Assembly (NCBI GenBank): GCA_001789635.1
Contig: MGAF01000032.1
Span: 1 to 43,810 of the forward strand
Direction of reading: 5' to 3'
Source: Candidatus Roizmanbacteria bacterium RIFCSPLOWO2_01_FULL_35_13
Lineage (GTDB): Bacteria; Patescibacteriota; Microgenomatia; UBA1406; GWC2-37-13
DNA length: 43,810 nt
How positions within the stretch are numbered: position 1 is the stretch's first letter; each line of letters opens with the position of its first letter. Below, one piece after another: positions 6,051-21,354 of this stretch. The notes under the pieces are model-generated. The model saw only the letters and a program-made list of their open reading frames with translations, was not told the origin of the DNA and did no database searches. Made by a program: the position numbers and the translations under genes.

Positions 6051-6122
6051 GGGTCGCTAGTTTATCGGTAGAACACTTTCCTGATAAGAAAGAGGTGCTT
6101 GGTTCGATTCCAAGGCGACCCA
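6051..6122 (+). tRNA. tRNA-Ile (GAT)
   Basis: Complete cloverleaf: acceptor GGGTCGC/GCGACCC, D-arm GTTT/GAAC, anticodon stem CTTTC/GAAAG with loop CTGATAA (anticodon GAT), variable AGGTG, T-arm CTTGG TTCGATT CCAAG, discriminator A. No encoded CCA. Confidence 0.95.
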
Positions 6123-6135
6123 CCTAGTCCACATC

Positions 6136-6207
6136 GACTGCTTAGCTCAACGGTAGAGCACTTCGTTTACATCGAAGGGGTTGGCGGTTCAAATCCACCA
6201 GCAGTCA
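6136..6207 (+). tRNA. tRNA-Val (TAC)
   Basis: Complete cloverleaf: acceptor GACTGCT/AGCAGTC, D-arm GCTC/GAGC, anticodon stem CTTCG/CGAAG with loop TTTACAT (anticodon TAC), T-loop TTCAAAT, discriminator A. No encoded CCA. It lies 13 nt after tRNA-Ile and is probably cotranscribed. Confidence 0.95.
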
Positions 6208-6210
6208 CTA

Positions 6211-6350: not shown

Positions 6351-6402
6351 ATGTCTCGATAAAATCGGGATTTAGGCAATCGAATTGTAAGGAATATAAT
6401 TC
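6351..6402. repeat. RhuM-cassette border repeat, copy a
   Basis: Contains CGATAAAATCGGGATTTAGG and ATTGTAAGGAATATAATTC. It is almost identical to copy c at 8787-8840 and more distantly like copies b and d, which lie upstream of the two RhuM genes. It borders the 3' end of the decayed RhuM copy. Confidence 0.7.
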
Positions 6403-7320
6403 ATTTTTTACCTTTTTTCAGCAGTTTCTTTGCAAGCTTATCAAAATCGGAGATAAATTTTTTGTCCACATTTCTTTTATAATAAGTAAACTCTTTTTTT
6501 GCTTTCATTTCAGCGCTCGCTGCGCTTACGCTTCCTGAATATTTAAGAATCCCTTTACCCATAAGAGCCAAATATTCATCAAGTTTCTTAATCCAATCAG
6601 CCATTTTCATTGCTTTTTCACTTTGAGCCTGGATTTCGGCAAACGAAAGATACGCGTCAACAATGCGATTTAAAAGCTCCAGTTCTTTTTCATCAAGATA
6701 GTTTTTCGCTATAAAAATATCGCGTTTGATGGGATGATATCCCGGGAAGTTTGTCAAACCAAAATTTTCTTTATTTCTGCTTACCCGTTCAGAAATAATT
6801 TCAGCCGCGGTCTTACTTGTCACGGCATAATGCATTTTATTCTGCACGGTTTTGAAGAATAGATCAGTTTCATTCGCGTCTTTTCGGTAATCAATCGAGG
6901 TTGAATAAATATCAGTCACTTTCTGATAAAACATGCGCTCGCTACTGCGGATATCGCGGACGCGCTGCAAGAGCTCTTCAAAATATCTAGATTTGAATTT
7001 ACACGATATCCGACAGCGATAATAGTTTCCAGATTGTAGTGTTTAGCTTTATATTTTTTTCCGTCCGATGCAGTTATCGAGTATTCCTCGACAACTGAAT
7101 TCGGATCAAGTTCTCTTTCGGCAAAAATGTTTTTCAGATGCAAGGAAACATTATCAATACTGCATTCAAAAAGTTGAGCAATCAGCTTCTGCGTCAGCCA
7201 CACATTTTCATTCTCAAAGCGTACTTCCACCCGCGCCTTGCCGTCATCTGATTCGTAGATGGTAATTTGAGCATTAGGTTGTATATTTTTTATTCTGTTC
7301 ATATTTTCATTTTTCGCCAT
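6401..7320 (-). pseudogene. Decayed RhuM-family gene (copy 1)
   Basis: Two overlapping frames together make a damaged copy of the intact gene at 8836-9849. The N-terminal part (start MAKNENMNRIK at 7320) carries the DNA-binding-like segment ENVWLTQKLIAQLF and KHYNLETIIAVGYRV. It then leaves frame near 6991, and the C-terminal part resumes as RYFEELLQRVRDIRSSERMFYQK in another frame. Compared with the intact copy about 35-40 codons are absent at the junction (the QGTQFRKWATERLREYLIKG region), so this is a deletion plus frameshift, not programmed recoding. The C-terminal half remains well preserved, so decay is recent. Confidence 0.8.
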
Positions 7321-7372
7321 GTCCCGATAAAATCGAGGTATAGGCCAACAAATTGTTAAATAAAGTATAGCA
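7319..7372. repeat. RhuM-cassette border repeat, copy b
   Basis: CCCGATAAAATCGAGGTATA followed by GGCCAACAAATTGTTAAATA and a short AT tail. Nearly identical to copy d at 9848-9902. On the minus strand it forms the leader of the decayed RhuM gene and carries a TATACT -10 candidate. Confidence 0.7.
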
Positions 7373-7496
7373 TCAACACAACAGGCTTTATAAATTAAAA
7401 AAGTAAGAAAAATGCTAGAATACATGCACTAAAATTTTTTCTTTCGAAGCTAATCAGGAGTGAATAGAAACTAAAATAGCTTAATCTAATAATAAC

Positions 7497-7558
7497 TTGA
7501 AAAATAGATTATAAATGTTTATAATCTACCATACTGGATTATACAATTCCATAATCTA
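7497..7558 (+). promoter_or_regulatory. Fic promoter with two inverted-repeat operators
   Basis: TTGAAA (7497-7502) and TATAAT (7520-7525) are spaced by 17 nt. The -10 lies inside a perfect inverted repeat with 9-bp arms TAGATTATA/TATAATCTA (7505-7528). A second, imperfect copy, TGGATTATA/CATAATCTA (7535-7558), runs to 2 nt before the ATG. This layout, with a repressor site covering -10 and start, suggests tight autorepression, plausibly by the HTH end of the Fic protein itself. Confidence 0.7.
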
Positions 7559-7560
7559 CT

Positions 7561-8658
7561 ATGAATAACCCATTTATTCCGGTAAAGCTACCGATAAAGA
7601 TTGACTATCAGCCATTACTAACACAGATTACAAAATCACACAGGGAAATAGCCAAACTTGACGCATTACTCTCGCAATTAATTAATCCACAGCTTCTTGA
7701 AAGAACTTTACTAACAAAAGAGGCCGTAATGAGTTCACAGATAGAAGGAACCCAAGCAACTATTAACGATGTATTTAAATATGAAGCTAAGGGAGATATA
7801 AAACAAGAGTCAAAAAAAGATATGGACATTCAGGAAATAATAAATTATAGAAAGACATTAGAAAAAGGTGTTTCTTTATTGGACAAAAGACCGATTTCGG
7901 AAAATTTTATTAAGGAATTGCATCGGGCGTTATTGCAATCTGTTCGTGGCCACAATAAAGCTCCGGGTGAATTCAGAAGGAATATTGTCTATATTGCTAA
8001 ACCTGGCGCACCGGTTGAGGAAGCAAAATTCATACCGCCACCACCCACTCTTATTCCGGAATTATTCAGTAATTTAGAACGATATATTAACTCAGATGCT
8101 GAACATGACAGTCTTGTCCAAATCGCTGTTGCTCACTATCAATTTGAGGCAATTCATCCTTTTATGGACGGTAACGGTAGAATAGGTAGGCTAATAATAT
8201 CTTTATTTCTTTTTGATAAAAAACTGCTTTCTTATCCGTACCTATATTTAAGCGAATATTTTGAGATCAATAGAGAGGAATACTATCAACTTCTGCGAAA
8301 TGTAAGTCTAAAAAATGAGTGGTTTAATTGGATTTTATTTTTTCTAAAAGGGTTGGAAGAACAGGCAAAAAAAGCTCAAATTTTAGCTCAAAAAATTAAT
8401 AACCTATATAACTCAATTGATGAAAAAATGCCTGAACTGAGATCGGTTTATGCGTCGTCTTTTTTCCACGCCTTGTTTAAGCAACCGATTTTTACCTCAA
8501 GATCGATAAGAAAAGTTATCAAATTCAAAAATAACCAAACCCTTTTTGATTTAATTGCAAAATTTCAAAAGGCGGATCTAATAAAAGAGCTAACGTCGAA
8601 TCAAAAGAGAAATAAAATGTATATGTTTAAAAAACTGATAAATTTAATTCAGACTTGA
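7561..8658 (+). CDS. Fic-family AMP-transferase with N-terminal inhibitory motif
   Basis: 365 aa. Fic proteins transfer AMP or a related group onto hydroxyl side chains of target proteins. The catalytic motif HPFMDGNGRIGR (199-210) is complete with His199 and Arg210. SSQIEG (58-63) fits the (S/T)xxxE(G/N) inhibitory helix placed before the Fic core (class II, self-inhibited). A flap-like segment AKFIPPPP (155-162) precedes the core, as usual. The C-terminal about 75 residues look like a winged helix (SRSIRKVIKFKNNQTLFDLIAKFQKADLI). There is no Shine-Dalgarno site. It sits between the two RhuM copies and is controlled by its own operator array. Target unknown. Confidence 0.9.
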   Translation: MNNPFIPVKLPIKIDYQPLLTQITKSHREIAKLDALLSQLINPQLLERTLLTKEAVMSSQIEGTQATINDVFKYEAKGDIKQESKKDMDIQEIINYRKTLEKGVSLLDKRPISENFIKELHRALLQSVRGHNKAPGEFRRNIVYIAKPGAPVEEAKFIPPPPTLIPELFSNLERYINSDAEHDSLVQIAVAHYQFEAIHPFMDGNGRIGRLIISLFLFDKKLLSYPYLYLSEYFEINREEYYQLLRNVSLKNEWFNWILFFLKGLEEQAKKAQILAQKINNLYNSIDEKMPELRSVYASSFFHALFKQPIFTSRSIRKVIKFKNNQTLFDLIAKFQKADLIKELTSNQKRNKMYMFKKLINLIQT

Positions 8659-8749
8659 TAACAAGAAAAAAAGCTCCCCGCAAGCTGGCTTTCTCTTTCG
8701 AGATTATCCATAACCCTTTCGAATTATGACCGCGTAATGTTCCTAGACG

Positions 8750-8780
8750 AGAAGCTCTCATCGCTTCTGTAGGTTTTTTT
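8750..8780 (+). terminator. Hairpin plus T-run after fic
   Basis: AGAAGC/GCTTCT stem (8750-8755 with 8763-8768) followed 5 nt later by seven T (8774-8780). The 90 nt between the fic stop and this stem hold no gene I recognise. It is a modest terminator candidate. Confidence 0.45.
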
Positions 8781-8786
8781 CCACAA

Positions 8787-8840
8787 TTTCCCGATAAAAT
8801 CGGGATTTAGGCAATCGAATTGTAAGGAATATAATTCATT
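8787..8840. repeat. RhuM-cassette border repeat, copy c
   Basis: Nearly identical to copy a (6351-6402); it overlaps the last codons of the intact RhuM gene. Both copies carry the CGATAAAATCG palindrome. Confidence 0.7.
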
Positions 8841-9849
8841 TTTTACCTTTTTTCATGAGTTTTTTAATCTCCCGGTCAAAGTCAGAAATGTAGTTTGCGT
8901 CCCGATCTCTGCGATATATTTCATATTCTACTAAGGCTTTCTTTTCTGCCTGTTTCGCGCTCACCCTGCCGGCACTGTGAAGAAGTTGCTTTTCACTAAT
9001 TGTTAAAAACTCATCAAGTTTTTTGATCCAATCCTGCATTTTCATAAGGCGACCACTGCTTGCCTGCAATTCGGCAAAATCTATATATAAAGAGACTATC
9101 AAATTTAATTGATTGAGTTCATTTTCATTTAAATAATTTTTAGCGATTACTATATCGTCAGTGGTAATATAATCGCTTTTAAAACTCATCAGACCCATCA
9201 ATGGCTTTTTACTATCCGCCCGCTTATTTATAATCTCGGCTGCCGTATGTCCATGTACCGCAAAATGCATTTTGTTCTGCACAGTGGCAAAAAACTTTCG
9301 GGTAAGCTTTGCGTCCTGTTTATAATCAATACTCGTCGCATAAATATCAGTTACTTTCTGATAAAACAACCGTTCACTGCTTCGAATATCCCGCACTCGC
9401 TGCAACAGTTCTTGAAAGTAGCGCGCTCTGCCACCGGCCTGCTTAAGCCTTTCATCATCCAACGTAAAACCCTTGATCAGATATTCCCGTAGTCTTTCTG
9501 TTGCCCATTTGCGAAACTGCGTTCCCTGTTGGGATCTCACCCGATAGCCAACAGCCAGAATTGCATCGAGATCATAGTGCTTTGTGTCATAATCTTTGCC
9601 GTCCACGGCAGTTATCCGGAAATTCCGGATAACTGAATTTTCAGCCAACTCTTGCTCCAAAAATATATTTTTCAAATGCTCGTTAACCGTGCGTACATCG
9701 ACATCAAAAAGTTCCGCAATTAGTTTTTGCGTCAACCAAACATTCTCGTCTTCAATTCTGACACTAATTTTTTGTTCATCACCAAGAGTTTGATAGATAG
9801 CAATTCGTGGTTTTTTAATTTCTTTTTTCATATTTTCATTTTTTGCCAT
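8836..9849 (-). CDS. RhuM family protein (intact copy)
   Basis: 337 aa from MAKNENMKKEI (9849); a longer frame runs upstream but through the border repeat. The N-terminal domain reads ENVWLTQKLIAELFDVDVRTVNEHL, an HTH-like segment, then YDLDAILAVGYRVRSQQGTQFRKWATERLREYLIKGF, the RhuM/KilA-N-like signature, and a C-terminal helical part starting RDIRSSERLFYQKVTDIYATS. RhuM was named in Salmonella pathogenicity islands; related genes are common beside restriction and toxin-type genes, but the biochemical role is not established. An alternative start is MKKEI at 9831. Gene and flanks duplicate those of the decayed copy. Confidence 0.85.
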   Translation of the reverse strand: MAKNENMKKEIKKPRIAIYQTLGDEQKISVRIEDENVWLTQKLIAELFDVDVRTVNEHLKNIFLEQELAENSVIRNFRITAVDGKDYDTKHYDLDAILAVGYRVRSQQGTQFRKWATERLREYLIKGFTLDDERLKQAGGRARYFQELLQRVRDIRSSERLFYQKVTDIYATSIDYKQDAKLTRKFFATVQNKMHFAVHGHTAAEIINKRADSKKPLMGLMSFKSDYITTDDIVIAKNYLNENELNQLNLIVSLYIDFAELQASSGRLMKMQDWIKKLDEFLTISEKQLLHSAGRVSAKQAEKKALVEYEIYRRDRDANYISDFDREIKKLMKKGKK

Positions 9850-9902
9850 GTCCCGATAAAATCGAGGTATAGGCCAACAAATTGTTAAATAAAGTATAAC
9901 AT
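9848..9902. repeat. RhuM-cassette border repeat, copy d
   Basis: Nearly identical to copy b (7319-7372). It forms the leader of the intact RhuM gene. Confidence 0.7.
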
Positions 9903-9942
9903 CAATACAACAGGCTTTTATAAACTTTAAATGCAGGAAAAG

Positions 9943-9951
9943 TGATAAAAT
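9943..9951 (+). promoter_or_regulatory. Extended -10 (TGA-TAAAAT), predicted leaderless start
   Basis: TGATAAAAT ends 6 nt before the ATG at 9958. Confidence 0.55.
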
Positions 9952-9957
9952 GTATCT

Positions 9958-10878
9958 ATGCCGCTTTTTAAACTGCAAAATGACAACTTAGAGCCGATTG
10001 TTTCTAAAGATTTTAAAGAAAAAACGCTTCAGAGTATTACTGAAGAAAATTTAAACAAAATATTTAATTTGAAATTTGTTTCTACTGAGTTTTCCTTACA
10101 TAATTTTAGAATTGATACTTTAGCCTTTGATGAAGAAAATTCATCTTTTGTCATTGTTGAATATAAAAAAGATAGAAGCTTTAGTGTGATTGATCAAGGA
10201 TATTCTTATCTATCATTACTTTTAAATAATAAAGCCGATTTTATTTTGGAATATAATGAAAAAAATAATAAATCTTTAAAAAGAGAGGATGTAGACTGGA
10301 CGCAATCAAGAGTAATATTTGTTGCAAAAGATTTTACTTCGTACCAATCAAATGCAATAAACTTTCGAGATTTACCAATAGAATTATGGGAAGCAAAACT
10401 TTATCAAAACGATATTTTTCTGTATAACCAACTGAAATCACCAGATACAAATGAGTCTATAAAAACTGTTTCTAAAAGTAAAACCATAGAATCTGTCAGC
10501 CGAGAGGTAAAAAAATATACAATATCTGATCATTTTAAAGAAGGTTGGGAAAAAAGTAAAGAATTATATGAAATTCTGGAAGAAAAAATTTTTAATCTTG
10601 ACGCTCGCTTCACTGTAAGTCCACAAAAATACTATATTGGATTTAAAATTGGCAATCAGGTCGTAATAGGAGTAAAAATCAGGAAATCAAAATTAATTAT
10701 TCGGTTAAATCGAGTCCAACCAAAAGACTTAGTAGACCCTGAAAAAAAAGTAAAATATCTTAAAAATAGCTTTGAATACTACCATAAGCACATTTCAGAT
10801 TATGAATTTACTGATGAAAAAGATATTGACTATGGAGTGTTTTTAATCAAACAAGTTCATGAAAAGTTTTATAAATAA
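9958..10878 (+). CDS. PD-(D/E)XK nuclease-like N-terminus fused to a DUF5655-like domain
   Basis: 306 aa. Residues about 45-75 (FRIDTLAFDEENSSFVIVEYKKDRSF) fit the D...ExK core of a NucS/DUF91-like restriction fold, with the Asp in RIDTL and the Glu/Lys in VEYKK. The C-terminal part (about 190-306, YTISDHFKEGWEKSKELYEILEEKIFNLD) resembles the DUF5655 'predicted transport protein' domain commonly fused to such nucleases. I infer DNA or RNA binding or cleavage; no substrate is known. The start is supported by an extended -10 ending 6 nt upstream. It diverges from the RhuM gene with about 108 nt between true starts, and belongs to the same accessory block. Confidence 0.65.
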   Translation: MPLFKLQNDNLEPIVSKDFKEKTLQSITEENLNKIFNLKFVSTEFSLHNFRIDTLAFDEENSSFVIVEYKKDRSFSVIDQGYSYLSLLLNNKADFILEYNEKNNKSLKREDVDWTQSRVIFVAKDFTSYQSNAINFRDLPIELWEAKLYQNDIFLYNQLKSPDTNESIKTVSKSKTIESVSREVKKYTISDHFKEGWEKSKELYEILEEKIFNLDARFTVSPQKYYIGFKIGNQVVIGVKIRKSKLIIRLNRVQPKDLVDPEKKVKYLKNSFEYYHKHISDYEFTDEKDIDYGVFLIKQVHEKFYK

Positions 10879-13696: not shown

Positions 13697-14668
13697 CTAA
13701 CCTCTTTTAATCTGACTACTTCCCCAGAGAGTTGGAGCGGAAGATTGCTTAAGGAAGGAAAAAACCAAACTTGCAGCGCGCGCGCCAGACCCAACCGCAG
13801 ACGTTATTTGCTCAATTGAGTATTTATGACTTATCACGTCTCCCGCAACATAGACTCCGGGAACAGAAGTTGATAATCGTTCGTCAACAGCGATAAACCC
13901 ACCCGGATCCATTTTTACTCCCAAAGGCAAAAGTAGAGCAGTGCCGGGAACTCCGCCAACTTCAATAAAAACTTTGTCGATTACTAAATCTTTTAATTCT
14001 TCCTGGTTTTGCGAATTTTTCGACTTAATTTTTACAGAGTTAACTTTTTGACCATCTCCTGAAATTTCAGTAAGTACCGAATTGTAAATTACTTCAATCA
14101 TTGGATTTTCGGCAATATGTTTTGCCCAAACCGTATCACAGCGGAGTTCAGTACCCCGATAAATTATAAAAACTTTCTTTGCCGAATGTCCTACCTGTAC
14201 AGCAGTTTGAGCCGCAGCATTACCACCGCCAACCACTATCGCCGTCTTATCAAGATAATCAAACTTACCGCACTTGGCACAATACTCAACACCCTTTCCG
14301 ACATATTCATTTTCACCCGGAATATTTAATTTTCTTCTTTCCACACCCGTTGCCAATATAATTGTTTTAGTTTCAAAAGCTTTGTTTTGTTCCGTCTTCA
14401 ATAAAAATCCCGTTTCAACTTTTGTAATATCAATTACCAGATCTGTTAAAATTTCACCGCCTCTTTTTTTTGCCTGCTCCAACATTTTATTAGTTAATTC
14501 CTGTCCGTTAATCTCAGTAAAACCGGGGTAGTTCAAAATATCCGGAGCTAGTGTCATCTGTCCGCCGACTAATTTTCCAATCAGTAAGTGTTTCAATCCA
14601 AAACACGAAGCATAAATTGAGGCAGTAAGCCCTGCGGGTCCTGCGCCGATTATAATCAAATCAAACAT
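13697..14668 (-). CDS. trxB: Thioredoxin reductase
   Basis: 323 aa. FAD-binding GAGPAGLTAS (8-17), redox Cys130-Ala-Lys-Cys133 in the NAD(P)H domain, the second nucleotide motif GGGNAAAQTA (147-156) and the closing FAD motif GVYVAGDV. The usual HRRxxxR NADPH-phosphate contact reads YRGTELR, so one arginine is replaced and cofactor preference could be shifted. It would reduce thioredoxin-like proteins in the cytoplasm. A TGCTAATAT extended -10 ends 6 nt before the ATG, and a 16-bp palindrome shared with a TrpR-like regulator lies 64 nt upstream. Confidence 0.9.
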   Translation of the reverse strand: MFDLIIIGAGPAGLTASIYASCFGLKHLLIGKLVGGQMTLAPDILNYPGFTEINGQELTNKMLEQAKKRGGEILTDLVIDITKVETGFLLKTEQNKAFETKTIILATGVERRKLNIPGENEYVGKGVEYCAKCGKFDYLDKTAIVVGGGNAAAQTAVQVGHSAKKVFIIYRGTELRCDTVWAKHIAENPMIEVIYNSVLTEISGDGQKVNSVKIKSKNSQNQEELKDLVIDKVFIEVGGVPGTALLLPLGVKMDPGGFIAVDERLSTSVPGVYVAGDVISHKYSIEQITSAVGSGARAASLVFSFLKQSSAPTLWGSSQIKRG

Positions 14669-14768: not shown

Positions 14769-15794
14769 CTAAGAATACCTTTTTGCGGCTGAATCGATAA
14801 TTAATTTCAACATTTCTTCATATGCAATACCGGCTGCTCTACAAGCAAGTGGAAAATAAGATGTTGTAGATACTTCGGGTGGAAGTATACCGGGCGGAGA
14901 ATTAACTTCAAGAACAAACGGATTACTTTGATAATCCAATCGCAAATCAACCCTGCACCAGTCCATAATATTAAGAGCCCGCCATAACTCTAGGCAATTG
15001 ATTTCAATTTTTTTCTTTAGCTTTTTATGCATGGGTGCAGGACAACGAAGATAATCCGTATTTCCTTCTTTTTCTTCAAAAATCCATTTTACTTCAAATG
15101 AATCCAAAGGCAAAATATTTTTTGGCAGTTTTGAATGATCGGGTGAAATCATAGGTAAAATACGGGGTGGGTTTCCCAACATTGCAATAGAATATTCCGG
15201 TCCGGATAAAAAAGGTTCTACCATTGCGGCTTCGTGTTTAAAAGTTTTTAGCATAAATTTAATTTGTTTTTTTAATTCATTATCATTTTTTACAACACTT
15301 TTATTATTAATTCCTGCTCCCGAGCCTTCGGAAACAGGTTTAACAATAAGAGGGAAGTGCAGATTTGGATTTAACTTTGCATCACTATTTGAGAAAAGTT
15401 GAAAGAGGAGAGTTGGTACATTATTTGCCAGAAGAACTTCTTTTGTTTTTGCCTTATTTAATACTAAAGCTTGTGTTAGCGGTGAAGAACCGGTATAGGG
15501 AATACGAAGCATTTCTAAGATCGCCGGCAGCTGGGCTTCGCGGTCTTTACCGTAAATTCCTTCCGCAACATTAAATACTAAATCTATTTTATTCTTATTT
15601 TTATACAGGTTCAAATAAGCTTTTTCATCCGCTTCAACGGGAATTACTTTATAGCCGCAATTTTCCAAATGTTTAATCTGCCATTTGGTTGTAATTGGGT
15701 CATCAAGATCAACCTCCAGTTGAGTCCTGGAATCTCTTGGATCAGGATATTTGTGCCTAACATTGTAGAGAAAGGCAATAGTCTTGATTTTCAT
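14769..15794 (-). CDS. ATP-grasp ligase, D-Ala-D-Ala ligase-like (first of three)
   Basis: 341 aa. DLVFNVAEG (71-79) with REAQLPAILEMLRIPYTGSS (85-104) is the N-terminal signature of Ddl-type enzymes; VKPVSEGSGAGI (151-162) is the nucleotide loop, and DLRLDYQ...FVLEVNSPPGILPPE carries the Mg-binding Glu/Asn. Such enzymes activate a carboxylate with ATP and join it to an amine. True Ddl enzymes usually end in EVNTLPGMT, so the VNSPPGILPP variant suggests another substrate. The N-terminus (MKIKTIAFLYNVRHKYPDP) lacks the usual Ddl glycine-rich start. It diverges from the SET gene at 15862 and is followed by two further ATP-grasp genes. Confidence 0.75.
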   Translation of the reverse strand: MKIKTIAFLYNVRHKYPDPRDSRTQLEVDLDDPITTKWQIKHLENCGYKVIPVEADEKAYLNLYKNKNKIDLVFNVAEGIYGKDREAQLPAILEMLRIPYTGSSPLTQALVLNKAKTKEVLLANNVPTLLFQLFSNSDAKLNPNLHFPLIVKPVSEGSGAGINNKSVVKNDNELKKQIKFMLKTFKHEAAMVEPFLSGPEYSIAMLGNPPRILPMISPDHSKLPKNILPLDSFEVKWIFEEKEGNTDYLRCPAPMHKKLKKKIEINCLELWRALNIMDWCRVDLRLDYQSNPFVLEVNSPPGILPPEVSTTSYFPLACRAAGIAYEEMLKLIIDSAAKRYS

Positions 15795-15861
15795 ATAAGT
15801 TTGTTATTAAATTATTCATTCTATCAAACAGTTTAAAAAATATTTAATATAAATATAAATA

Positions 15862-16596
15862 ATGTTTTTACTCCCGGACTCTTACATTGAAATAAAAAAA
15901 ACAGGCAAAAAAGGTAGAGGAGTATTTGCTAAAAAAGATGTACGGGCTGGCACAATAATCGGTGATTTTCTCGGAAAAATTGTCAATGATGAAGAGGCGG
16001 ACAAACTAGAAAAAAAGTATGGATTATATGCTACGTATTTTGATGAGTATCGTTCTATTTTTCCCAATCTGAAGCAAAACGGCGTTCACCTGATAAACCA
16101 CTCATGCATGCCTAATTGTGACGTATATCCTTATGAGGCACATTTATTATTTTTTGCGGCGAGGTATATTTTTGCCGGGGAAGAATTAACTATATCCTAT
16201 GGAATTGAAGGACCTTCCACCGCAAAAGATACAAATTATCCTTGTTTCTGCGATTCATTATTATGTAATGGAACAATGTTTATTGCCAAAAAAAATAGGG
16301 AAGAGATAGAAGCATTTTTTGAAAAAAAGCTAAATATCTTTGCAAAAATTATAAAAACAAATACAGTATTAAAAAAATTATCCGCATACCCTGAACACAT
16401 TCAGGACTTTGATTTTATTAATCTGTATGCAAACTTGGATAAAAAACCTTATGTTTTAAAGAGTCATAAATTACCAAATTTAGAAGAAAACAGGAAAATA
16501 ATGAGGCAAACAGGTAGGATAATTTACTTTTATAAACTGCAAATAAAAATAATTGCCGTAAATAAACTTGTCGTTATATCACAGTTAACTAGTTGA
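15862..16596 (+). CDS. SET-domain protein (putative lysine methyltransferase)
   Basis: 244 aa. SET signatures are in order: GRGVFAKKDVRAGTIIG (about 18-34), the cofactor/active-site NHSCMPN (about 79-85), GEELTISYG (about 106-114), and a post-SET-like CFCDSLLCNG (about 128-137) with three cysteines for zinc. The enzyme would transfer methyl from SAM to a lysine side chain. The C-terminal about 100 residues are lysine-rich and unassigned. The gene is inserted between ATP-grasp genes and converges with the second, 10 nt from its end. SET proteins are unusual in small bacterial genomes; the target may be the product of the adjacent ligases. Confidence 0.85.
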   Translation: MFLLPDSYIEIKKTGKKGRGVFAKKDVRAGTIIGDFLGKIVNDEEADKLEKKYGLYATYFDEYRSIFPNLKQNGVHLINHSCMPNCDVYPYEAHLLFFAARYIFAGEELTISYGIEGPSTAKDTNYPCFCDSLLCNGTMFIAKKNREEIEAFFEKKLNIFAKIIKTNTVLKKLSAYPEHIQDFDFINLYANLDKKPYVLKSHKLPNLEENRKIMRQTGRIIYFYKLQIKIIAVNKLVVISQLTS

Positions 16597-16605
16597 AAGT
16601 CCAAC

Positions 16606-17604
16606 CTATATTTTGTATTCATATTGCCGCATTGTATTGGCGATTAATCTTTTTAAGATTTCCAAAAAACTTACTCCGTACAGTTTAAGCACTAGAGATA
16701 TGTCAGCCTGTAACTCAGTCGGTCCGAAATAAGGATTGGAATTACTGTCGATAAAATAATACCTTCCTGAACCGTCCAACCTAACATCAAATTTACCATA
16801 GTCTTCCATTCTGGTCACGTCAAAAGCTTTCTTAACATATTCAGTCAGCACCGAATCGTTAAATTTTTCATAGTGTGATTTTTTGTATTTTTTATCACGC
16901 CACTGAATGTCATAAGACGCTATTACGTATTTGTCCTCAGTATGAAAAATTCTTTCGGCTAAATAAACTTTTTTATGCATGCTTTCAACGATCAGAGCGG
17001 TTATTTCGCGACCCACTATAAATTCTTCCACTAAAACAGATTGATTATAAGTTTTAATTAAAAATTTAAGTCTGTCTCTCAGGTGTTTTTCGTTTTCTGA
17101 AATAGCGTCTTTAGTTATCTCTACCGATCCATGAATTTCATTAAGTTTTGAAATAAGGGGAAATCTTAAAGTCGGATCGAGTCTTTCTGAATACTGATTA
17201 ATTAACTGGTAATGAGGAACCGGTATTCCGTGCTGCTGCAGCAATTTTTTAACCAGAAATTTATTGTATGAGAGTGACTCGCCTAAAATTCCGGTTCCGG
17301 TATAGGGTATTTCTAAAAGCTCCATCACTCCCGGTATCGAAGCTGCCAAATATTCCTCACCTTTGATTGATCCAACAAGATTTAAAACCATGTCCGGTTT
17401 ATCTTTCTTGAGTTTTTGCGGTAGGACAGAATTAGCAGGATATAATTTAGGAAATATGCCCAAATTGATAAAATATTTTGCAATTACTTTTGCATCTTTA
17501 ACAGCATCTTTCTCTGTAAGATACTGTTCCTCCGTTGGAAAATATTTTCTTTTGATATCACTGTGAACGATAGCCACTTTTTTCGGCTTTTTCATTTTTT
17601 TCAT
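16606..17604 (-). CDS. ATP-grasp ligase, Ddl-like (second of three)
   Basis: 332 aa. LNLVGSIKGEEYLAASIPGVMELLEIPYTG gives the Ddl-like N-terminal layout; KFLVKKLLQQHGIPVPHY begins the ATP-grasp core, LVEEFIVGREITALIV is the central strand, and KFDVRLDGSGRYYFIDSNSNPYFGPTE holds the Mg ligands, with DSNSNP in place of EVNTLP. The glycine-rich loop is atypical (LISKLNEIHGSVEI). It is clearly different from the gene at 14769 and should have its own substrate. It lies 14 nt after the PGM1-like gene and is probably cotranscribed with it. Confidence 0.7.
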   Translation of the reverse strand: MKKMKKPKKVAIVHSDIKRKYFPTEEQYLTEKDAVKDAKVIAKYFINLGIFPKLYPANSVLPQKLKKDKPDMVLNLVGSIKGEEYLAASIPGVMELLEIPYTGTGILGESLSYNKFLVKKLLQQHGIPVPHYQLINQYSERLDPTLRFPLISKLNEIHGSVEITKDAISENEKHLRDRLKFLIKTYNQSVLVEEFIVGREITALIVESMHKKVYLAERIFHTEDKYVIASYDIQWRDKKYKKSHYEKFNDSVLTEYVKKAFDVTRMEDYGKFDVRLDGSGRYYFIDSNSNPYFGPTELQADISLVLKLYGVSFLEILKRLIANTMRQYEYKI

Positions 17605-17618
17605 TTTAAATTATGATA

Positions 17619-19058
17619 TTAGTCAATAGAATTTAAAATTTCAAGCAGATCGGATTGAATTTTATAAGCTCTTTTTTTACTGTTTCCGTAAATTGTATAT
17701 AATAAAGAGTTGGCAGATAAATAGCCTGAGCCTGATAAAATTACTCCTTCTTTCCTGGATTTGTCAAAAAGCACCGGCTGCACTTTTTTAAGGATTGAGT
17801 CAAATTCTATGGGTTTCTGAGTTTTTAATGTGTAGTTATCGCGATTTATAACATATGCGTCGGAGAAAAAATCTTTCCCATATAGCTCCCTTGTCAATTT
17901 GTATACATCTGTCCCTCCGGTATTTCTGGTATTTGACTCACAAACATACATCTTGCTGTTGCCTGACGAAATCATGTCAATATCAAAGTGTCCCCTGTAG
18001 CCTGCATCCTCATATTGTTCAGCTATATAATAACCCGTATCTATAATCCTGGCCGCAGTTCTTTCGTTGAGAATTTCTTCATTCATATCCAGCCCGTAAT
18101 ATTTTCCCTCACCGGTTACCATCATCAGACAGTAATATAGCATCTCAATCTTACCGCTTTTGTGGATTTTGAATTCAATATTTGGAAAAGATGAGATATT
18201 ATTAAAATTAACATTGATTAATTGTTCTATAATTATCGGAAACCTGTCCCAGTAACCGTCTTCCGATAATAACTCATATATTCTTTTTTCACACGACTTG
18301 TAATCCCGCGGTAATTCACCATCCCTAAAAATTAGTACGCCGTGACCGCCGCTTCCCTTATTAGTTTTTAGCACAACCCCTTTTTCGTTGATATATCTGT
18401 TGGCCGCGATTTTAGCGGCATCCAACTTGCCGACACAGATTACACCGTCAGGCATTATAAAATCAGGTTCTACGGCCCGTGATTGCTGGGCGAGTTGCCT
18501 GATACCGCTCTTACTCCCGAAAAAATTTACGGTCCAGGCATTTTCGATTTCAGGCGCTTCCGGAGTAGAAACATTAATTCTCAACTGCAGCAATCTTTCT
18601 TTGAGCTCATAAAATTCAGGCGATGTTGCATAACTTATTAAAGTAACTTTTTTATATTTTTTGGCTTTTTTTATGAAATCGTTAAAAAGAAATTTATCCG
18701 TATACAGATCTTTACAAACTAAGCCTGTTTTACGCGTCGGAACGAGTATGTCTACCTTTTTAGTATTGCAGACACTCTGAAAATATTTTTTAAAGGAATT
18801 ACTTATTTTTATAGGGGATATGTAAATAAATTCCTGATTGGAAGCATTGGCAAAAAGATAACACTCTGAAGCATTATTTAATTCGTTTATGGCTTCATAT
18901 CTTTTTTCCAGCGGTTGGATGGCTGAAACAAAAGACCACTCATCTTCAACCACATTAAAAATATAGATAACCAGTTCGTTTCTATTTACCCGTTTTAATT
19001 TAGAATATTTTTTTTTACTTTTTATTTTTTTTCCTTTTAATATCTTTCTTTTTTTCAT
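17619..19058 (-). CDS. ATP-grasp peptide ligase, PGM1-like (third of three)
   Basis: 479 aa. A very basic N-terminus (MKKRKILKGKKIKSKKKYSK) precedes a pre-ATP-grasp-like Rossmann region (about 27-175). The ATP-grasp part shows VVLKTNKGSGGHGVLIF (228-244), the nucleotide loop, and CESNTRNTGGTDVYKLTRELYG (373-394). The NxRxTGGT motif is characteristic of ligases related to the pheganomycin enzyme PGM1, which join a non-ribosomal amino acid to a ribosomal peptide. It is the first gene of a minus-strand pair with 16606-17604. Substrate unknown; no precursor peptide is evident nearby. Confidence 0.65.
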   Translation of the reverse strand: MKKRKILKGKKIKSKKKYSKLKRVNRNELVIYIFNVVEDEWSFVSAIQPLEKRYEAINELNNASECYLFANASNQEFIYISPIKISNSFKKYFQSVCNTKKVDILVPTRKTGLVCKDLYTDKFLFNDFIKKAKKYKKVTLISYATSPEFYELKERLLQLRINVSTPEAPEIENAWTVNFFGSKSGIRQLAQQSRAVEPDFIMPDGVICVGKLDAAKIAANRYINEKGVVLKTNKGSGGHGVLIFRDGELPRDYKSCEKRIYELLSEDGYWDRFPIIIEQLINVNFNNISSFPNIEFKIHKSGKIEMLYYCLMMVTGEGKYYGLDMNEEILNERTAARIIDTGYYIAEQYEDAGYRGHFDIDMISSGNSKMYVCESNTRNTGGTDVYKLTRELYGKDFFSDAYVINRDNYTLKTQKPIEFDSILKKVQPVLFDKSRKEGVILSGSGYLSANSLLYTIYGNSKKRAYKIQSDLLEILNSID

Positions 19059-19113
19059 TTTTTAATAAACACATACATTATTGATTATTTTTTCAGAATG
19101 TCAATACTTTTTT

Positions 19114-19122
19114 TGTTACAAT
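19114..19122 (+). promoter_or_regulatory. Extended -10 (TGT-TACAAT), predicted leaderless start
   Basis: TGTTACAAT ends 6 nt before the ATG at 19129. This decides the start of the Clp-like gene over the TTG at 19081. Confidence 0.6.
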
Positions 19123-19128
19123 GAAAAT

Positions 19129-21354
19129 ATGCAGAAGGATTTTATTTCTTTTAGTAAAGAGAAGTTTTCGAATTTCTATCAGGCCGTTATTAATCTGCTG
19201 ATGTTCTTTCCCTATTTTTTCTCTGTTCCGACTCTGGTAAAAACCTTATTTTATCCCTGGAAAAATTTAGTTACAAAAGATAATACGGTAGGCTTTTCTC
19301 TAAGCTCCTGGATGTCAACAGCAGGCTTTAATTTAATCTCAATGGGAATGGGTTTTATTATGCGCTCAACAATAATTTTGTTTTATTTTATTTTTCAGGC
19401 AATCCTTCTGATACTTCTGCCTTTTATTTTTTTACTCTATATGCTCGTAATACCGCTTTTATACTTTGAAGGTCTGACGCAAAAAACCGAGGATGAAAAA
19501 AAAGAAATTGCCAGACTCAAATTTATAGGAGCCAGATTACTAAACCAGGAAAATTACAAAACAGTTGCCGGTTGGTTTGAAGATTATTATCAGAAGCATC
19601 TGCACAAGACCCGCTGGTGGAAGCGTTCCAACCTCTTTGCTATTCCACCTCTTGCCCGCGATTGGGCTGTCGGATTTACTCCGACCCTTGACCAATACGG
19701 TCAGGATTTTACCTCTTCAGCCTATCAGGATAAAACACTTAATATAGTTGACCGTGAAAACGAAATAGACGAAATAGAGCGTACCCTATCAAAAAGCCAG
19801 GAAGCTAATGTTGTCATAGTAGGCGAAGAGGGTGTAGGAAAACACACTGTTGTAGTTGCTCTGGCAAAAAAAATGTACGAAGGCAAAACCAAAAGTCTGC
19901 TTATGTACAAAAGAATCATTCTACTCAATATGGAAAAAATATTGAATCAGGAAACCGACTCACAGAAGAGGGAGAATTTTTTCGAAGAATTATTAAGTGA
20001 AGCTGCTGCGGCAAAAAATATTATCATTTTTATTGACAGTGTTGATAAGTATATTTCTTCGGAACGATCAAAAGTCGATCTGACGACTTCGCTGGAAAAA
20101 TTTGCCAAAAGCAATCAGCTGCAGATAATAGGCGTAACCACTCCTTTCTTTTATCAAAAATTTTTTTTGCCTAACGAAAGACTTTCTCATTTATTTTCGA
20201 AGATCGAGGTAAAAGAAGTTTCCGCTAAAGACGCGGAAAAAATTTTGCTGCAGCTTGCATATTCGCTCGAAGAGCGATACAACGTCATACTACCTTACGA
20301 AACTCTAAAGAGCGCCATCGAGAAGAGTGATTTTTATATCACAGCCATACCTTTTCCGGAAAAAGCTATTGATCTTTTAGATTCGGCCTGTGTTTTGGCT
20401 AACCAATCAGGGTTTAATTCAGTATCACACGATCTAATTGATAAAGTCTTAGCGGAAAAAACTCACGTTCCAACCACACTAACCGAAAATACTAAGGAAA
20501 AACTTGTGAATCTCGAGCAGCTGCTTTTTGAAAAAATAGTTAATCAGCAAAAAGCAGTATTAAAAGTTTCTTCTGCTTTACGCCGCTCATTTCTTTTGCT
20601 TGGAAAGCGAAAAAAACCACTGGCTAGTTTTCTCTTTTTAGGACCGACAGGAGTCGGCAAGACCGAAACAGCCAAAGCAATTGCCAAAATATTTTTTGGA
20701 GGAGACAACTACCTCTCCCGGTTTGATATGTCAAATTATCAATCCACTTCAGACATTCCAAAACTGATCGGTTCTCTTGACACCGGCAATCCGGGATTAC
20801 TAGCCAAAGCGGTTCGCGAAAGTCCCTATGGAGTTTTACTTTTAGACGAGATAGAAAAGGCTAATAAAGATCTGCTTAATATTTTTTTGAGCGTACTTGA
20901 CGAAGGCTATTTTGCCGACGGATTTGGCAAACGGGTCGATTGTAAAAATCTGGTAATAGTCGCAACCAGCAATGCCGGATCGGATTTATTTTTTGCTCAA
21001 ATGAGTCCAATTAAACCAATTAGTCTTATCGACCATCTAATCGAAAAGCAAATCTTTGCTCCGGAATTTCTTAACCGTTTTGACGCGGTCGTTGCCTATA
21101 ACCGGCTTGATCCCGAATCTGCCAAACAAATAGCCAAAAAAATGCTGCAAAAAATCTCTGAAGATATCTACAACCTTCATAAAGTCAAAATAAATGTGTC
21201 TGATACTTTTTTGAGTGATCTTATTACAAAGGGCTATGATGAAAAATTTGGCGCCCGCAATCTTGAACGCTTGCTAAGAGACGAGGTTGAAGATAAAATA
21301 GCAAGAATCGTACTGAAAGAAAAAGTAGAAGAAGAAAAAACTGTAAATCTCTAA
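19129..21354 (+). CDS. Membrane-anchored Clp-type double AAA+ ATPase
   Basis: 741 aa from MQKDFISF. The first 120 residues contain hydrophobic segments (about 19-45 and 80-114) that anchor it to the membrane instead of a normal Clp N-domain. D1 has Walker A GEEGVGKHT (232-240) but its Walker B ends IFIDSVD, without the catalytic DE pair, so D1 may bind but not split ATP well. D2 has Walker A GPTGVGKT (505-512), Walker B LLLDEIE and sensor TSNAG. The C-terminus GYDEKFGARNLERLLRDEV matches ClpA/B/C. I see no clear ClpP-binding IGF/VGF loop. Such membrane Clp proteins are typical of CPR genomes. It begins a plus-strand run, 1 nt before tmk. Confidence 0.85.
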   Translation: MQKDFISFSKEKFSNFYQAVINLLMFFPYFFSVPTLVKTLFYPWKNLVTKDNTVGFSLSSWMSTAGFNLISMGMGFIMRSTIILFYFIFQAILLILLPFIFLLYMLVIPLLYFEGLTQKTEDEKKEIARLKFIGARLLNQENYKTVAGWFEDYYQKHLHKTRWWKRSNLFAIPPLARDWAVGFTPTLDQYGQDFTSSAYQDKTLNIVDRENEIDEIERTLSKSQEANVVIVGEEGVGKHTVVVALAKKMYEGKTKSLLMYKRIILLNMEKILNQETDSQKRENFFEELLSEAAAAKNIIIFIDSVDKYISSERSKVDLTTSLEKFAKSNQLQIIGVTTPFFYQKFFLPNERLSHLFSKIEVKEVSAKDAEKILLQLAYSLEERYNVILPYETLKSAIEKSDFYITAIPFPEKAIDLLDSACVLANQSGFNSVSHDLIDKVLAEKTHVPTTLTENTKEKLVNLEQLLFEKIVNQQKAVLKVSSALRRSFLLLGKRKKPLASFLFLGPTGVGKTETAKAIAKIFFGGDNYLSRFDMSNYQSTSDIPKLIGSLDTGNPGLLAKAVRESPYGVLLLDEIEKANKDLLNIFLSVLDEGYFADGFGKRVDCKNLVIVATSNAGSDLFFAQMSPIKPISLIDHLIEKQIFAPEFLNRFDAVVAYNRLDPESAKQIAKKMLQKISEDIYNLHKVKINVSDTFLSDLITKGYDEKFGARNLERLLRDEVEDKIARIVLKEKVEEEKTVNL

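Follow-up and report, generated by a model that had tools for sequence, protein, structure and literature searches.

Three ATP-grasp ligases, two of them Ddl-like and one similar to the pheganomycin peptide ligase PGM1, lie together in a variable island that occupies a mostly shared chromosomal slot in Roizmanbacteria and their relatives, and in which the sets of ligases are swappable. With a probability of about 0.55, we consider that this variable peptide-ligase island carries out the stepwise non-ribosomal synthesis of a short peptide, which possibly carries D-residues. A gene for a SET-domain protein is found among the ligases in the window, and it is regarded here as an occasional accessory of uncertain role and not as a core part of the island.

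Gene content of the island

The window, which is the whole stretch of DNA analysed, is a contig of 43.8 kb, and its genome (G000; the other G numbers are the genomes of relatives and L numbers are loci) has 1.45 Mb and a completeness of about 90%. A previous examination of the same DNA, called here the sequence-only reading, reported at 14769-19058 a SET gene together with one PGM1-like and two Ddl-like ligases. All four open reading frames are located there (Table 1), that of SET apparently intact, with every quoted motif present (EVNSPPGILPP, DSNSNP, NTRNTGGT, NHSCMPN and GEELTISYG). The labels DdlA and DdlB designate the two Ddl-like families of the islands, and residue numbering follows E. 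coli DdlB. The description of the genome as lacking luxury genes was overstated, given its size and the isochorismatase, Fic, RhuM, HtrA and Nramp genes that are also inside the window.

Table 1. Features of the island and of its edges in the window.
Feature	Position	Strand	Description
Thioredoxin-reductase-like flavoprotein (TrxR-like)	13697-14668	-	TIGR01292 293 bits, under cut-off 343
Ddl-like ligase DdlA	14769-15794	-	341 aa; PF07478 (Dala_Dala_lig_C) E 4.9e-26
SET-domain protein	15862-16596	+	244 aa; PF00856 E 9.4e-21; post-SET Cys motif CFCDSLLC
Ddl-like ligase DdlB	16606-17604	-	332 aa; PF07478 (Dala_Dala_lig_C) E 1.1e-14
PGM1-like ATP-grasp ligase	17619-19058	-	479 aa; profile match to PGM1 3wvq E 1e-7
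Divergent ClpA-like double AAA+ ATPase	19081-21354	+	TIGR02639 E 1.9e-110, under equivalog cut-off
tRNA-Ile(GAT) and tRNA-Val(TAC)	6051-6208	+	Other conserved island edge

The region 6401-10878, located between the tRNAs and the ligases, carries two RhuM-family genes, of which one is apparently split (6401-7425), together with one gene for a Fic-domain protein and one for a DUF5655 protein. The 3' part of a 16S rRNA gene is found at the contig end (1-515). The ClpA-like ATPase, a constant neighbour of the island, has hydrophobic segments close to its N terminus.

Conservation and variation of the island among relatives

The survey comprises the 83 genomes of the order, and genome-wide counts come from profile searches. 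A PGM1-like gene is present in 22 of these genomes, and a Ddl-like gene, either DdlA or DdlB, is at most one gene away from it in 21 of the 22, the exception being G081; the ligase part of the co-occurrence proposed by the sequence-only reading is thus kept across relatives. DdlA is the most frequent immediate partner of the PGM1-like ligase. The island usually lies between the ClpA-like gene, which flanks it in most loci, and either the tRNA-Ile/tRNA-Val pair or a CBS-Nramp-SAM-HAT block; both tRNAs, with the anticodons GAT and TAC, are found in 20 of the 24 related loci scanned, and one of them in two. Relatives differ in the part of the island next to the tRNAs.

G005, a genome of the same genus, has the order ClpA-like, PGM1-like, DdlB, DdlA, short SET and TrxR-like. 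Elsewhere the slot contains one of the following sets: PGM1-like and DdlA; DdlB, PGM1-like and DdlA; DdlB and DdlA, in some loci accompanied by a MurL-like gene; or a protein that fuses an L-amino-acid ligase to Ddl. The TrxR-like flavoprotein lies close to DdlA in six genomes, which belong to two genera; the order is DdlA-TrxR in G001, G002, G003 and G006 and DdlA-SET-TrxR in G005. Pairs of PGM1-like and Ddl-like genes at approximately 30% identity, in reversed order, are found in three distant loci, including Daviesbacteria and Aminicenantes, and two of these loci have a C39 peptidase gene adjoining the pair. Common descent may account for much of the synteny within Roizmanbacteria, and the independent arrangements number fewer than the raw counts.

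Among 412 small open reading frames compared around the islands, none is conserved in at least three islands except those derived from tRNAs; the large clusters appear to be translations of tRNA genes, and very short or weakly conserved peptides could escape this comparison. A conserved precursor or carrier peptide was rejected on this result, and the common carrier or tagged small protein that the sequence-only reading had suggested was not found in the island. The island core has no recognisable exporter, resistance gene or regulator. PADLOC gives no match for the four proteins, TrxR, the MurL-like protein or the fused ligase, and an anti-phage defence system was rejected accordingly.

The PGM1-like ligase and its polybasic tail

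The PGM1-like protein has no match in Pfam and weak LdmS and BesA matches in NCBIfam, and a profile built from seven homologues reaches by sequence, among solved relatives, only PGM1, BesA and the ATP-grasp peptide ligase 8ynd. Its predicted model (mean pLDDT 90.7, with a disordered tail) aligns with PGM1 (3wvq) over 412 residues with a VIA Z of 36.3 and an rmsd of 2.8, well above the PurK and biotin carboxylase rows, which score Z of about 20-22. The predicted pre-ATP-grasp and ATP-grasp fold covers nearly the whole chain and is shared with PGM1, 8ynd, BesA (8yi6) and the LdmS-type ligase 7r8q, with Z of 36, 34, 34 and 27, respectively. The E-x-N-x-R-x-x-G core is invariant in 31 homologues, and the conserved ESNTRNTGGT of the island ligase corresponds to EHNGRATGST of PGM1. 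The island ligase differs from PGM1 and its relatives in its sequence, with only about 16% identity, in its polybasic tail and in its pairing with Ddl-like ligases, and, unlike for PGM1, whose class is defined by adding an amino acid to the N terminus of a peptide made by ribosomes, a precursor peptide gene was not found around the islands by the comparison of small open reading frames.

Between the window genome and G005 the PGM1-like protein has 92% amino-acid identity, and the other shared genes compared have 62-85%. The nearest named database record by this protein, also at 92% identity, is a Candidatus Roizmanbacteria genome, and the remaining matches are mostly from Roizman-, Beckwith-, Collier-, Woese- and Shapirobacteria. 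A viral origin of the protein was rejected, as no relatives were found in the viral contigs searched.

The polybasic N-terminal tail comprises residues 1-27, is predicted to be disordered and contains 12 lysines in its first 23 residues, as the sequence-only reading had approximately counted. Tails of about 12-40 residues are kept in most close orthologues by composition and not by sequence; a net charge of at least +6 within the first 17 residues is found in 62.5% of 24 close PGM1-like sequences and in 1.4% of 498 other proteins from these loci. Such a tail, together with a SET gene that is present and recurs near the gene set, could point to protein tagging, in which the ligases would add residues to a protein and SET would methylate lysines there or in the ligase tail. 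However, the lysine-rich tail is also retained in genomes without SET, such as G024, and therefore it is not the signature of a SET target that had been supposed. Most genomes with a PGM1-like gene are also devoid of SET, the islands encode no conserved small protein among those compared, and the closest solved ligases (PGM1, BesA and LdmS) act on amino acids or short peptides, all of which makes tagging very improbable.

The Ddl-like ligases differ from D-Ala-D-Ala ligases in the amino-acid pocket

DdlA shares with true Ddl the fold, with a VIA Z of 32 for its predicted model (pLDDT 88.6), and the ATP and Mg residues. In DdlA and DdlB, the residues Lys97 (Arg in two DdlB), Lys144, Glu180, Glu187, Asp257 (Glu in three DdlB) and Asn272 are kept, so the ATP and metal residues of these families are retained or conservatively changed. 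The non-Ddl metal motifs attributed to both proteins were therefore overstated for DdlA, which keeps Glu270 and Asn272, and amount in DdlB to a conservative Asp-x-Asn; it is in the amino-acid pocket that the proteins truly depart from Ddl.

In the pocket triad of Ddl, formed by Glu15, Ser150 and Tyr216, DdlA keeps Ser150 and has a tryptophan in place of Tyr216; the position aligned with Glu15, in a less certain part of the alignment, has lost this residue, although in DdlA acids lie nearby. The exchange of Tyr216 for Trp is found in 27 of 27 DdlA, in all 19 DdlB that have a residue there, in the three distant proteins and in four of the five fused ones, whereas Tyr216 is kept in 15 of the 16 canonical Ddl. 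Leu282 is replaced by Tyr in all 27 DdlA. DdlB also lacks the canonical pocket residues: compared with E. coli DdlB it has Y216W, mostly K215Q and R255K, and E270D, with Lys215 lost.

In a tree of 73 sequences, which has several long branches, DdlA, DdlB, the fused domains and the distant set are separated from canonical Ddl with 100/100 support, and L131, initially classed as canonical Ddl, falls beside DdlA. Neither family groups with canonical Ddl, so both the phylogeny and the altered pocket place them outside the true D-Ala-D-Ala ligases, as the sequence-only reading had anticipated.

It could be argued that DdlA or DdlB is the D-Ala-D-Ala ligase of the cell in a divergent form, since canonical Ddl was not found in G000, G005, G011 and G031, even though a dcw cluster is present in G000 and G011. 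Across the 83 genomes, with canonical and island-type Ddl assigned by bit-score bands and checked by the tree for part of the set, 19 have both types, 24 only island ligases, 10 only canonical-like Ddl and 30 neither, which gives no negative association (Fisher p 0.11, odds ratio 2.4). The coexistence of canonical-like Ddl with island ligases in 19 genomes makes it unlikely that DdlA is merely the Ddl of the cell, and about 30 genomes have no Ddl-type match of either sort above the search threshold. Together with the tree and the pocket residues, this coexistence led us to reject a divergent true Ddl, an explanation that we consider quite improbable.

The SET protein is an occasional neighbour of the ligases

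The nearest solved chain to the SET protein is KMT2A (E 1.4e-15), with GRG, NHSC and GEELTxxY aligned, and the GxG, NHxC and catalytic Tyr motifs (GRG, NHSC and GEELTISY) predict a SET lysine methyltransferase. No other SET match was found in its genome, and 20 of the 83 genomes have a SET match. Because it is encoded on the opposite strand, it is not co-transcribed with the ligases in the window. Among the 22 genomes with a PGM1-like gene, SET is in the cluster in two (G000 and G005), represented by two different, non-orthologous types, and 14 have no SET match at all. The four genes are thus not conserved as the unit that had been proposed, and this arrangement was rejected.

The view that SET plays no part in the pathway and is a passenger, being a mobile or unrelated gene inserted in a variable island, has a likelihood only a little short of even. 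This explanation agrees with its opposite strand in the window, with its absence from the cluster in every PGM1-like-bearing relative of the order except G005, whose SET is of another type, and with the unrelated contexts in which long SETs related to that of the window are located in other genomes. On the other hand, the SET of G005, which is short (131 aa, with 32% identity to the window SET over 99 residues), fits tightly between DdlA and the TrxR-like gene on the same strand, and SET lies beside ligase or MurL-like genes in five of the 20 SET-bearing genomes: G000, G005, G007 (with DdlB and C39), G013 (SETs with two GNATs and a MurL-like gene) and G027 (near a MurL-like gene). The four cases besides the window compare with about 0.2 expected, an approximate Poisson tail of 6e-5, where the expectation was set by hand at about 1% for each SET and cluster, and where G000 and G005 belong to one genus. 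SET therefore recurs near the gene set above this rough chance level, which suggests that the link is not wholly accidental.

A more specific proposal is that SET enzymes of different types were taken up on more than one occasion by a non-ribosomal peptide pathway, in which they would methylate a lysine-like residue of the peptide on its side-chain amine; we hold it to be unlikely. The lysine-aminomutase-like or decarboxylase-like enzymes of other islands could also act on a basic residue.

Partner genes in relatives and the cell envelope

A MurL-like PP-loop protein of 450-520 aa, absent from the island of the window, is found in eight related loci. The one member scored against the MurL model NF041275 reaches 30.7 bits over residues 125-441, far under the curated cut-off of 700, a weak match that spans most of the protein. 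The profile of this family also reaches a stronger MurL adjoining MurD in the dcw cluster of G000, and the partner protein is a paralogue of this true dcw MurL, which these genomes also possess. The dcw genes for MurL-type epimerases are L209:3433-6281 (G000:C4), with 227 bits and beside murD, and L210:12671-15212 (G011), with 313 bits and beside a murD-like gene; these scores are likewise under the NF041275 cut-off. They suggest that Roizmanbacteria use the MurL route to D-Glu; this group is not listed in the passages of PMC8788868 consulted.

Other partners are a lysine-2,3-aminomutase-like (KamA-like) gene in L024, an ornithine-cyclodeaminase/SbnB-like (OCD-like) gene in L022, LysA-like and GNAT genes in L185, and C39 peptidase genes in L031, L064 and L066. 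An approximately 820-aa fusion of an L-amino-acid-ligase-like module (BacD/TabS class, with LAL_C2 in L178) to a Ddl-like ligase, absent from the window, is encoded in L178:6639-9110, L177, L185, L189 and L190; the five genomes that carry it have no PGM1-like match, and three of the fusions adjoin a ClpA-like gene. Judged by their families, the partner genes would fit a peptide with modified residues.

Since Ddl, MurL, FemAB-like GNAT and LysA-like proteins also take part in peptidoglycan metabolism, the peptide could be a wall component. In this main rival to a soluble metabolite, the ligases would build or extend a wall peptide, at the stem terminus or in a cross-bridge, and the partners paralogous to wall enzymes, C39 among them, would be explained; in the genome, MurL lies beside MurD in a dcw cluster, and a MurF-like gene is found elsewhere. 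Nevertheless, the core island has no Mur ligase, glycosyltransferase or flippase, and close relatives differ sharply in its composition, which would not be expected of an essential wall step. We regard a wall peptide as somewhat unlikely.

Proposed pathway and relation to known systems

In the stepwise synthesis that we prefer, each of the PGM1-like and Ddl-like ligases would use ATP to convert a carboxylate into an acyl phosphate and would then couple it to an amine; working one after another on free amino acids or a small acid, they would produce a short peptide, two to four residues long. In relatives, a MurL-like C-terminal epimerase or a lysine-2,3-aminomutase-like, decarboxylase-like or redox enzyme could then modify residues. 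In the window genome SET would be an optional accessory, with a lysine-type amine of the product or of a protein as its methylation target. The stepwise ligases with separate specificities of the sequence-only reading are retained to this extent: the specificities probably differ, the ligases are kept together across relatives and lie outside true Ddl, the pocket is changed family-wide, and the partners are of amino-acid- or peptide-modifying families, whereas the SET and carrier parts of that claim found no support.

Oligopeptide synthesis by ATP-grasp enzymes is already known (PMC6920838, PMC11427300, PMC2922099). In cystargolide/belactosin-type clusters, stand-alone ATP-grasp ligases act stepwise and a methyltransferase is in the cluster; there a carboxyl methyltransferase protects the acid, while the island has instead a SET protein of the lysine-methylating class (PMC11427300). 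No prior description of the island was found in the literature searched, a scope outside which most subscription papers fall, and within that literature the combination and the lineage appear to be new.

Bacteria of the Candidate Phyla Radiation are thought to make very little themselves. A slot with changing peptide ligases and enzymes that alter amino acids suggests a lineage that still devotes resources to a peptide of its own, perhaps for host contact or for the cell wall. As the ligases are stand-alone proteins of ordinary size, their substrates could be found directly.
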